Assembly: GCA_017852075.1 (NCBI GenBank)
Contig: JAFMLQ010000003.1
Coordinates: 19,217 to 83,216 of the forward strand
DNA: 64,000 nt
Direction: 5' to 3'
DNA from: Flavobacteriaceae bacterium
GTDB lineage: Bacteria > Bacteroidota > Bacteroidia > Flavobacteriales > Flavobacteriaceae
The notes below the pieces were generated by a model that was not told the DNA's origin, searched no databases, and saw only the letters and a list, made by a program, of their open reading frames with translations. Both the position numbers and the translations under genes were made by a program. This document shows, piece after piece, positions 61,453 through 64,000 of this stretch. Every line of letters starts with the position of its first letter. Position 1 is the stretch's first letter.

Positions 61453-63603
61453 ATGATGAATAGCTCTTTTAAACGAACATTGAATAGCATATTAATTATG
61501 CTTATGTTTTCCTCTTTTTTTATAGGATTTTCTCACACTGGTGACCATACGACCCAAGGTAAGCTATGGATTCTTAACAACCCAACTAAATCCGTAAAAG
61601 CAGATTTTATTTCTTTAAATAATCATCAAGTTTATTTAAAAGATGTAACTAGCCATACAATAGTCAATTATCCATTGACTGACTTTTCAATGGTGGATCA
61701 GTATCTGATTTTAAAGCAAGATGAATTTTCGAAAAAAATAAATCGGCAGCATCCAAATCAAACCCACCTAACGGCACCTATACAAACCAAAAAAATAAGT
61801 AAGAATAAAGCTGAATTTGGTCTATTGATATTGGTCTTATTAATTGTTTCAATCATTTTTTATTTTGGTTTTTCCAAAACAAAAAAGCCTGCATTAGCAG
61901 TATTTTATTTCTCACTTTTTGTGTTGGTGTTGGTGGCATGTGCACCAGAAGAGGAGGAAGATATACCCGATACAATTCAAACGTCAGATCCAGTAAAAGA
62001 GGATACTACTGACTCCAGCTCTGACAATACATCTACAGACACTACTTCAGATAGCGATACCTCTTCAACTGATACAGATTCTAATAATGATTCGAGTGAT
62101 TCAAATTCTACAAGCGATTTAATCAGTACAATAGTTAGTCACTTTAGTGATTTTTCTGGTGTAACCATTACTAGTGATGACGACCATTTTTATATTCATT
62201 CCTACAGCTGGCCAGAACATGGTATGGGAGTAGGTATTACCTCCTGGCAAGAACAAGTCCCAATACCACAAAATTATACTGGTAACAATAGCTGGGTTAT
62301 TCCTATCAATCCTAAAATGGCAGACGAACCTTTAAGTACAAGCGACCATCTCCTTAAAGGGGCTCTGGCAGTTGCGGTAAACGGAGTGCCAATATTTAAT
62401 GTGTTCAACAACCGAGGTGAAAACGCCTATCTTATTGGTGAATTGGATAATTGGGGAGGTCACTTTGGGCGTGGAGACGACTACCACTACCACCTTATTC
62501 CAACCCATCTGGAAGAAACTGTAGGAACCGACCAACCTTTAGCCTATGCACTTGACGGTTATCCTGTTTATGGGTATACAGACGAAACTCTAGATGACGC
62601 CTTTGGTCGTTATGACAGTGATGGAAATTACCGATACCATGCAAAAACGACTGAACCTTATTACATGCCTTATGTAATGGGAGAAATTGTTATTGATCCA
62701 AACTCTACAGCTCCCGAAGATCAGATTTATCCGCAGCCAGTTCAAAATCCTGTTCGCCCTTCAAATGGCTTTAAACCTGTAAATAATGCAACCGTTACAG
62801 CTTTTACTCAAACAGGGACTAATGCATTTTCTTTTGAATATACCGTTGGTGAAGTAAAGTACTATGTGAATTACAATTGGGACGAAAATTGTAAATTCAC
62901 TTACACCTATGTTGATGAAAATGGAGGGACAACTAATATACCTACCTATGGAGCAATTTCAGATACTTCTGTAAATGTTGAGGTGTACAACAACGTCTCC
63001 TTTTGTCAAGATGTGAATCTAGGTGAGGCGAGCGATGAGGAGGTATCCTCTTCAGATTCCAATACTAGCCCAGATGACACAGAAGAAATCGGATTTTCTG
63101 CAACTTCAACGATTTCTGATTTTACCTTGTCCAGCATTGCAATCGATTCTGAAGGCAACCTTTTGGATAACTATAAATGTGAGGACAAAGTGAATGGAAT
63201 TGAAAAATCAATACCTATTGCTTGGTCAAACGTACCCGATGGAACAACTAGTCTGGCCATTTCAATTCACGGTTTTCCTAATCAAAATGAAACCAATTCT
63301 TATTTAACTTTATGGAATATCGACCCTACCAATGTTACTGAAATTGAATACGGGGGTGCTAACGATGGTGCATGGTATATGGGACCAAACAAAGACGGGG
63401 CGTCTATCTCCTACAGTTCCCCTTGTAGTCCTAACGGAGCAACCCAAACCTACTATATGACCCTTTACGCTTTAAGTAAAACTCCACCTAGTTTACCTGA
63501 AGAAAATTCACTTACTGTAGACTATGGAGTTCTGGTAGATTCACTATCCGAAGTGACTATAATTGATCAAGTTGTTTTGGAATATGTATCTTCTTCAAAT
63601 TAG
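61453..63603 (+). CDS. Multidomain YHYH-domain / PEBP-like (YbhB/YbcL-type) protein with internal TM and lipobox-like segment
   Basis: Signal peptide; hydrophobic segments FGLLILVLLIVSIIFYFGF and ALAVFYFSLFVLVLVAC; Asp/Ser/Thr-rich linker; GDDYHYHLIPTHL and AYALDGYPVYGYTDE; C-terminal IPIAWSNVPDGTTSLAISIHGFP...LTLWNIDP resembling PEBP. Confidence 0.85.
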   Translation: MMNSSFKRTLNSILIMLMFSSFFIGFSHTGDHTTQGKLWILNNPTKSVKADFISLNNHQVYLKDVTSHTIVNYPLTDFSMVDQYLILKQDEFSKKINRQHPNQTHLTAPIQTKKISKNKAEFGLLILVLLIVSIIFYFGFSKTKKPALAVFYFSLFVLVLVACAPEEEEDIPDTIQTSDPVKEDTTDSSSDNTSTDTTSDSDTSSTDTDSNNDSSDSNSTSDLISTIVSHFSDFSGVTITSDDDHFYIHSYSWPEHGMGVGITSWQEQVPIPQNYTGNNSWVIPINPKMADEPLSTSDHLLKGALAVAVNGVPIFNVFNNRGENAYLIGELDNWGGHFGRGDDYHYHLIPTHLEETVGTDQPLAYALDGYPVYGYTDETLDDAFGRYDSDGNYRYHAKTTEPYYMPYVMGEIVIDPNSTAPEDQIYPQPVQNPVRPSNGFKPVNNATVTAFTQTGTNAFSFEYTVGEVKYYVNYNWDENCKFTYTYVDENGGTTNIPTYGAISDTSVNVEVYNNVSFCQDVNLGEASDEEVSSSDSNTSPDDTEEIGFSATSTISDFTLSSIAIDSEGNLLDNYKCEDKVNGIEKSIPIAWSNVPDGTTSLAISIHGFPNQNETNSYLTLWNIDPTNVTEIEYGGANDGAWYMGPNKDGASISYSSPCSPNGATQTYYMTLYALSKTPPSLPEENSLTVDYGVLVDSLSEVTIIDQVVLEYVSSSN

Positions 63604-63613
63604 GTAAAAAAAA

Positions 63614-63632
63614 ACCCTCCACATGGGAGGGT
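63614..63632. terminator. Hairpin terminator between convergent genes
   Basis: ACCCTCC-acatg-GGAGGGT preceded by an A9 tract (T tract for the minus-strand gene). Confidence 0.75.
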
Positions 63633-63638
63633 AAATTC

Positions 63639-64000
63639 TTATTTTAATAAGCGATCATTATAATATAATGTCTCTAAAATAATCATTCCTTCTTCATTAA
63701 AGTCATGCTGTGAATGGAATTTTAAAACAATATTTTTTCCGGTCTTCAAGTTTTTTACAGTCATATTATACCATGCTAAAACAACCCCACCATTGCCTTC
63801 ATAATCTATATAGTCGGGATACCCAACTTCATCTATTGAAACAAATTCAAATTTACTAAATACTTCACCCACATATTCTTGATGATCCTTTAGACTCTTG
63901 GTGTTTTGATCGATTGAATTGGAATCATTTATTCTAGCATTAGGTGAAAAATCTTTCCAAACTTTATCAAGATTACCTTGTGCAAGGTTATACCAAATTT
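63639..64000 (-). CDS. NTF2/SnoaL-like protein, 5' end beyond window
   Basis: Open frame continues upstream of the ORF-track start (GTG at 63872): ...WYNLAQGNLDKVWKDFSPNARINDSNSIDQNTKSLKDHQEYVGEVFSKFEF...; no stop to the window edge. Confidence 0.65.
   Translation of the reverse strand, partial: IWYNLAQGNLDKVWKDFSPNARINDSNSIDQNTKSLKDHQEYVGEVFSKFEFVSIDEVGYPDYIDYEGNGGVVLAWYNMTVKNLKTGKNIVLKFHSQHDFNEEGMIILETLYYNDRLLK

Follow-up and report, generated by a model that had tools for sequence, protein, structure and literature searches.

A lipoprotein-type lipobox lies deep inside one open reading frame of a marine Flavobacteriaceae bacterium, behind a signal peptide, a small folded domain and a first membrane helix. 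How did the site come to be there, and is it used? The window (the whole stretch of 64,000 nucleotides that was analysed) had first been read from its letters only, and that sequence-only reading proposed that a membrane protein had been fused to a YHYH lipoprotein that was once separate. The ORF is better regarded as a candidate case of an internal type II signal peptide, real and conserved, than as a fusion. The architecture, its conservation, the lipobox statistics, the identity of the SHD1 domain, and the gene and fusion partners were all established computationally.

Gene Architecture and Reading Frame

The 716-aa ORF begins with ATG and occupies 61453-63603 of the plus strand. From N- to C-terminus it encodes a signal peptide, an SHD1-like domain, TM1, TM2 with the lipobox (Cys163), acidic residues, a Ser/Thr/Asp linker, a YHYH domain and a PEBP domain (Table 1). 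In the AlphaFold model of aa 1-172, residues 4-27 form the signal-peptide helix, strands 37-74 plus helix 80-98 a small beta domain (pLDDT about 97), and 117-139 and 144-163 two membrane helices where two hydrophobic stretches had been noticed by eye. When each segment was searched with profiles, YHYH and PEBP scored over their gathering scores; SHD1 was reached by way of relatives, profile comparison and fold.

Table 1. Features of the SHD1-hairpin-YHYH-PEBP gene and its 3' flank (positions in the window).
Feature	Position	Strand	Basis
N-terminal signal peptide, aa 1-27, SPase I type, predicted cut before His28	61453..61533	+	sequence; model helix 4-27; alignment
Predicted mature N-terminus H-T-G-D-H	61534..61548	+	alignment of 25 hairpin relatives; planctomycete forms
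SHD1 (SLA1 homology domain 1), aa 36-98, predicted periplasmic	61558..61746	+	Foldseek, hhalign, Pfam in relatives
TM1, aa 117-139, predicted stop-transfer (N-out)	61801..61869	+	model
TM2, aa 144-163, predicted internal type II signal peptide, lipobox L-V-A-C	61882..61941	+	model, alignment, lipobox score
Acidic run APEEEED directly after Cys163, similar to the lipoprotein export signal (LES) of Bacteroidota	61942..61962	+	sequence; LES rules in PMC5080379
Low-complexity Asp/Ser/Thr linker (lipoprotein tether)	61963..62115	+	sequence; relatives
YHYH region, aa 222-510	62116..62982	+	Pfam, model, invariant His/Asp
PEBP/YbhB-like domain, aa 582-684	63196..63504	+	PF01161; weak match to structure 1FUX
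Terminator-like hairpin	63614..63632	.	pattern match only; directly 3' of stop codon

A sequencing error that joined two frames had been named as one way in which the first reading could fail. When members of the genus are compared, third codon positions hold an excess of differences in every structured segment (SHD1, hairpin, YHYH, PEBP). The identical uninterrupted frame also occurs in independent genomes of close relatives, both within the genus and in other genera. Together these two results exclude a frame error. At one locus (L088/L011), an A-run in the TM1-TM2 loop has one A fewer and the gene is split into SHD1-TM1 and TM2-YHYH-PEBP parts, either a real difference or a sequencing slip.

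Promoter patterns in a pattern search were no more frequent than in shuffles, and an Rfam search matched no family. The terminator-like hairpin lies between the ORF and a convergent minus-strand open frame (63639-63998), and its strong T-tail is on the minus strand, for the convergent gene.

The Mature N-Terminus and the SHD1 Domain

The signal peptide that had been read from the sequence is borne out by helix 4-27 of the model and by an alignment of 25 hairpin relatives, in which the predicted -1 residue (the cut being placed by eye) is Ala or Ser. The His that follows, His28, is invariant in 25/25 and the second His is usual. This alignment was not trimmed at the His, unlike the planctomycete N-domain alignment A5, whose invariant His is no evidence because A5 was trimmed to begin there. 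The planctomycete forms do share the His start motif of the mature N-terminus, and similar His-rich starts remain in planctomycete forms that have lost SHD1 (L123, L143 and L156). Gln is the exposed terminus in most Bacteroidetes SPase I substrates (PMC5837995).

The domain that follows is SHD1, as had been guessed by eye. The top PDB match of the N-domain model in Foldseek is 2HBP, the SHD1 of Sla1 (prob 1.00, TMt 0.71, rmsd 1.6, E 3.8e-3), and hhalign of the hairpin family against the planctomycete SHD1 set gave a prob of 98.5 and an E of 1.4e-15. Pfam and NCBIfam scans of the window protein's N-part found nothing over cut-off, SHD1 (PF03983) included, and an SHD1 search of its own genome had no match. 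Planctomycete YHYH proteins with the same N-domain pass the Pfam SHD1 cut-off (2.1e-14, 2.5e-6). For members from Psychrobacter, Chitinophagaceae-like organisms and the window's genus, SHD1 is the best Pfam match, below cut-off (e.g., 0.0053 for L081), and PF03983 run against 25 members matched seven at E up to 0.1, the best being 0.00019.

The Hairpin and Its Internal Lipobox

TM2 has the parts of a lipoprotein signal: an n-region (SKTKK), an h-region of about 17 residues and the lipobox L-V-A-C, with the Cys163 codon at 61939-61941. In the model the helix stops exactly at Cys163. Following a Lys/Arg-rich loop, TM2 is predicted to be oriented like a type II signal peptide. The window protein has the Cys, the canonical -3 and -1 residues, the h-region and the positive n-region of a lipoprotein; the N-terminal placement of the signal is lacking, the lipobox being internal at aa 163. 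Genes for Lgt and LspA are present in the genome.

The site is conserved. TM2 ends with Cys in 50 of the 55 non-redundant SHD1-hairpin-YHYH proteins, a count from which L062 and L063 were kept out since their Cys sits in TM1 and not in a lipobox. All of the Cys-bearing proteins (50/50) have F, L, I or V at -3 and A, S, G or T at -1, their hydrophobic runs span 13-19 residues, and the n-region is positive. A lipobox matrix trained on 78 N-terminal lipoproteins from the window and neighbour ORFs gave Cys163 a score of 4.9, below the first quartile of the training lipoproteins (6.8; median 9.5), and the Cys-bearing relatives 1.4-13.2; of 1007 other internal Cys, 12 score at least 4 and none reaches 8. 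The training filter partly fixes the -3 and -1 residues, so the matrix is not independent evidence for them; conservation within the family is. The lipobox at Cys163, noted earlier as a resemblance, is not a product of chance.

One known anchoring family was tried for the hairpin and rejected. NCBIfam NF058595 (invert_tail) matched 4 of 25 members weakly, all below the curated cut-off of 37 bits, and none over cut-off was found in 151 family genomes. In the open-licence literature no published case of, or experiment on, an internal or second-signal lipobox, or a type II signal after a hairpin, was found.

Relatives that lack the Cys follow more than one course. Three of the five Cys-less hairpin relatives (of the 55) carry a T9SS sorting domain over cut-off. 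The type A sorting domain was detected over cut-off in L045, L062 and L063, weakly in L065 and by eye in L166; a search of the window protein for the C-terminal sorting domain TIGR04183 did not find it. Neither Cys nor T9SS domain occurs in L069, L164, L167, L169, L170 and L171, and in L069 and L170 a plausible SPase I site follows TM2 (by eye only). A strict rule of Cys or T9SS domain was dropped, as several deep relatives have neither. These proteins imply that the hairpin can work without lipidation; being lipidated is its prevailing state but not its sole one.

The Acidic Run and the Linker

The residues directly after Cys163 resemble the LES, which was defined in Capnocytophaga and extended to Bacteroides and Flavobacterium (PMC5080379). 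The criterion used was acidic residues at +2 to +6 with a polar or basic residue before them. In the window's APEEEE the acidic residues begin at +4, and Ala-Pro at +2/+3 is outside the tested LES consensus; relatives with SAEEEE or STEDDD come nearer to SDDFE. Strong acidity after the Cys is found mainly in the window's clade, and 20 of the 52 rows counted (L062 and L063 included) have no acidic residue there. Since relatives outside the clade mostly do without a strong acidic run, surface exposure is a prediction at the level of the clade.

The Asp/Ser/Thr linker is present as had been described, and its length and sequence vary freely among relatives. In L087 and L089 (genome G009 and a related MAG), two additional repeat domains of the GGxVSxxGGxYxxGxxVxITATP type lie between the internal lipobox and YHYH.

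YHYH, PEBP and a Third Partner

Both C-terminal domains were correctly recognised from the sequence. PF14240 matches aa 280-397 (4.9e-10, 40.1 bits against a gathering score of 25), with the invariant motif D-D-Y-H-Y-H at aa 342-347 (62476-62493). Invariant across 47 diverse YHYH proteins are His337, Asp342, Asp343, His345, His347, Asp368 and Asp381 (window numbering). Confidence in the YHYH model is high (pLDDT 90, pTM 0.90), yet neither search of the PDB gave a relative: the best E by fold was 0.41, and by sequence no chain matched at E up to 10. On the basis of a His triad and an Asp, a survey of jumbo phages predicted that YHYH is a metal-dependent hydrolase (PMC7824862), and proteins with a His terminus have recently been shown to bind metals (PMC12537917). 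In view of these two reports, the invariant His and Asp of YHYH and the invariant His at the predicted mature N-terminus, a metal-linked role in the envelope is the best guess. It is tentative and somewhat doubtful, with copper, nickel and zinc indistinguishable as the candidate metal.

PF01161 matches aa 582-684 (1.9e-8, 35.2 bits against a gathering score of 24). The ligand site of canonical PEBP proteins includes a DPD motif and H-x-Y. In the alignment to 1FUX the window protein has an HGFPNQ stretch in place of YDPDA and TQTYYM in place of the H-x-Y region, departing from the canonical site; the domain is PEBP-like in sequence but probably lacks the usual ligand site.

The two domains have a recurring company. 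PEBP is encoded separately in many Flavobacteria, Cytophagales and Chitinophagaceae, by a lipoprotein-like gene that adjoins YHYH and has an apparent lipobox of its own; it is fused to YHYH in the window's genus and in planctomycetes. Another lipoprotein of about 335 aa, here called B, adjoins YHYH in 19 loci, Psychrobacter included (8930-9937 of L103 is one example), and no Pfam family scored over cut-off for it. Fusions of B with YHYH occur in four gammaproteobacteria (on its N-side, E 1e-19 to 2e-22) and in planctomycete L148 (on its C-side); a search of 25 genomes of the window's genus, run without a positive control, did not find B. Since YHYH, PEBP and B are adjacent and fused in differing combinations, they behave as one functional module.

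Further neighbours of YHYH differ by group and include LytS/LytTR and MacAB-TolC-like genes and, in a few loci, multicopper oxidases; the window's genus does not share its gene neighbourhood with the other Flavobacteria. Upstream of YHYH in L091 and L098 are a sigma-factor-like gene, a short ORF and a small LTXXQ-like (Spy/CpxP-type) protein whose LTXXQ match is below cut-off. In several planctomycetes (L118, L142, L152 and others, by eye) a sulfatase-like gene directly adjoins the SHD1-YHYH-PEBP gene.

Distribution and Evolution

Searches with a profile of the N-module covered 400 family and 396 phylum genomes. Those strong matches whose ORFs were read (L042 left out) continue into YHYH, and a scan of named genomes yielded 80 loci, whose ORFs were read as well. 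The order signal peptide-SHD1-TM-TM-Cys-YHYH occurs in 50/55 non-redundant hairpin relatives, mostly Bacteroidota plus Psychrobacter, and isolates of Aquimarina, Maribacter, Lacinutrix and Psychrobacter have it. An arrangement conserved across so many bacteria is no accident of this genome. Planctomycetes have signal peptide-SHD1-YHYH-PEBP without the hairpin.

The nearest YHYH proteins without a hairpin, L141 and L109, are stand-alone lipoproteins that begin at the Cys equivalent to Cys163. In a quickly built tree of the YHYH region, with SH-aLRT as its only support measure and a midpoint root used for drawing, they lie inside the hairpin clade (98), at two separate places. Whether relatives have the YHYH-PEBP part as a stand-alone lipoprotein had been proposed as a check; they show YHYH in that form in these two proteins and PEBP as a separate lipoprotein-like neighbour, which supports the point in part. 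The proposed fusion with a formerly separate YHYH lipoprotein is not supported, given the old architecture shared across Bacteroidota, the planctomycete joining of SHD1, YHYH and PEBP, and L141 and L109, whose nesting makes fission look likelier than fusion. Insertion of hairpin and lipobox into a secreted SHD1-YHYH protein, with later loss of the N-part, fits these sequences better. This direction is a preference and not proof, since the L141 branch is long and the root was placed for drawing only.

Two sets of loci are out of place taxonomically. Psychrobacter L112 and L113 are gammaproteobacterial, have the bacteroidotal hairpin form and partner B, and are nested among Bacteroidota, which looks like horizontal transfer. 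L085 and L090, in records titled Candidatus Marinimicrobia and Gammaproteobacteria, group in the window's flavobacterial genus; their contigs may be mislabelled or misbinned.

Processing of the Precursor

A single precursor with two signal peptides in series is the best explanation, and a fairly likely one. Sec would export the N-terminus and SPase I would cut before His28, leaving a His-x-Gly-x-His terminus on a periplasmic SHD1. TM1 would act as a stop-transfer sequence, the Lys/Arg-rich loop would stay in the cytoplasm, and TM2 would restart transfer, oriented as a type II signal peptide. Lgt would then lipidate Cys163, a step that we consider very likely, and LspA would cleave before it; a precursor cut into two products is likely. 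The SHD1-hairpin piece would be kept in the inner membrane, and Cys163-linker-YHYH-PEBP would depart as a separate lipoprotein. Given the acidic export-like run after the Cys, its destination in the window's clade would perhaps be the cell surface, a location that is an even call. YHYH may be a metal-dependent envelope enzyme or a metal binder, working with PEBP and, elsewhere, with the third lipoprotein, and the His-terminated SHD1 piece may bind metal or peptide. A broader proposal is rather unlikely as a whole: that serial signals of two classes are widespread in Bacteroidota, SPase I maturing a metal-catching, His-terminated SHD1 in the inner membrane and SPase II freeing YHYH(-PEBP) in equimolar amount, as a lipoprotein bound for the outer membrane or surface.

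If the protein stayed uncut, the two helices would be an inner-membrane anchor joining SHD1 to YHYH-PEBP, and the Cys would be kept for lipidation without cutting, as a metal ligand or for packing. Such a form seems workable, as Cys-less relatives retain the hairpin, and in planctomycete homologs SHD1 and YHYH share one chain, so the parts may act together. It is nonetheless unlikely when set against the lipobox rule obeyed at -3/-1 by every Cys-bearing protein, the free linker directly after the Cys, and stand-alone homologs that are lipoproteins starting at the same point; a lipidated lipobox would, moreover, be expected to be an LspA substrate. An ordinary lipoprotein could instead be translated from an internal start just upstream of TM2, alongside the long form. 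Some relatives do have an in-frame ATG, GTG or TTG 35-15 codons before the Cys, but the window ORF (as the first reading remarked of Met) and several relatives have none, the positions are not conserved, and the frame is conserved across the entire junction, all of which makes an internal start very unlikely. A recent accidental fusion, assembly error or frame error, suggested by the depth of the lipobox within the ORF and by the one-base split of L088/L011, is hardly credible against the same architecture in many independent genomes, isolates included, and the third-position excess in every structured segment.

With either mode of processing, the N-terminal part may serve for delivery or assembly only, as signal peptide and anchor, its invariant His having no metal role. 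Peptides are the presumed ligands of SH3-fold domains in bacterial extracellular proteins (PMC5906684), and the link to metal is based on residue conservation and a few neighbours; against this stand the invariance of His28 at the predicted mature terminus (25/25) and the His-rich starts that persist in SHD1-less planctomycete forms. This explanation is plausible, a little short of an even chance.

Significance and Comparison with Known Systems

If two signals in series are indeed used, they would represent a new route of lipoprotein biogenesis and a new two-part system for metal handling or a metal enzyme. Signal-peptide predictors look mainly at N-termini, and for this reason an internal type II signal would be overlooked in annotation, and such proteins would be missing from catalogues of lipoproteins. 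SHD1, YHYH and PEBP, three envelope parts that are poorly understood, are tied into one module with a recurring third partner, YHYH gains a confident model though it has no solved relative, and the invariant N-terminal His would point to a metal role.

Bacterial lipoproteins matured by Lgt and LspA share with this protein the n-region, h-region, lipobox Cys, disordered tether and lipobox score; here, in contrast, the signal is an internal one, preceded by about 160 residues that include a first signal peptide, a folded domain and TM1. CyoA and CtaC/QoxA are polytopic lipoproteins in which the lipobox is N-terminal and the TM helices come after it. In them, as is predicted here, lipidation goes together with TM helices; the order of lipobox and TM is reversed in the protein described here. 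NF058595 invert_tail, the 'lipo-invert' anchoring domain, bears a weak likeness to the hairpin and is C-terminal by name.

Surface lipoproteins of Bacteroidota with an LES likewise have acidic residues soon after the Cys, such as SDDDD or SDDFE (PMC5080379); the run here follows an internal Cys, and other family members have CKNT or CSKS. Histidine-brace proteins, DUF6702 and 'anglerases' have an N-terminal His that removal of the signal peptide exposes, as is predicted here, and anglerase domains are also joined to membrane parts (PMC12537917, PMC10952591); the names YHYH and SHD1 are absent from the text of PMC12537917. The tail-associated YHYH proteins of jumbo phages have the same domain, with its conserved His and Asp and a proposed metal-dependent hydrolase activity, but are fused to tail or lectin parts and not to SHD1, a hairpin or PEBP (PMC7824862).
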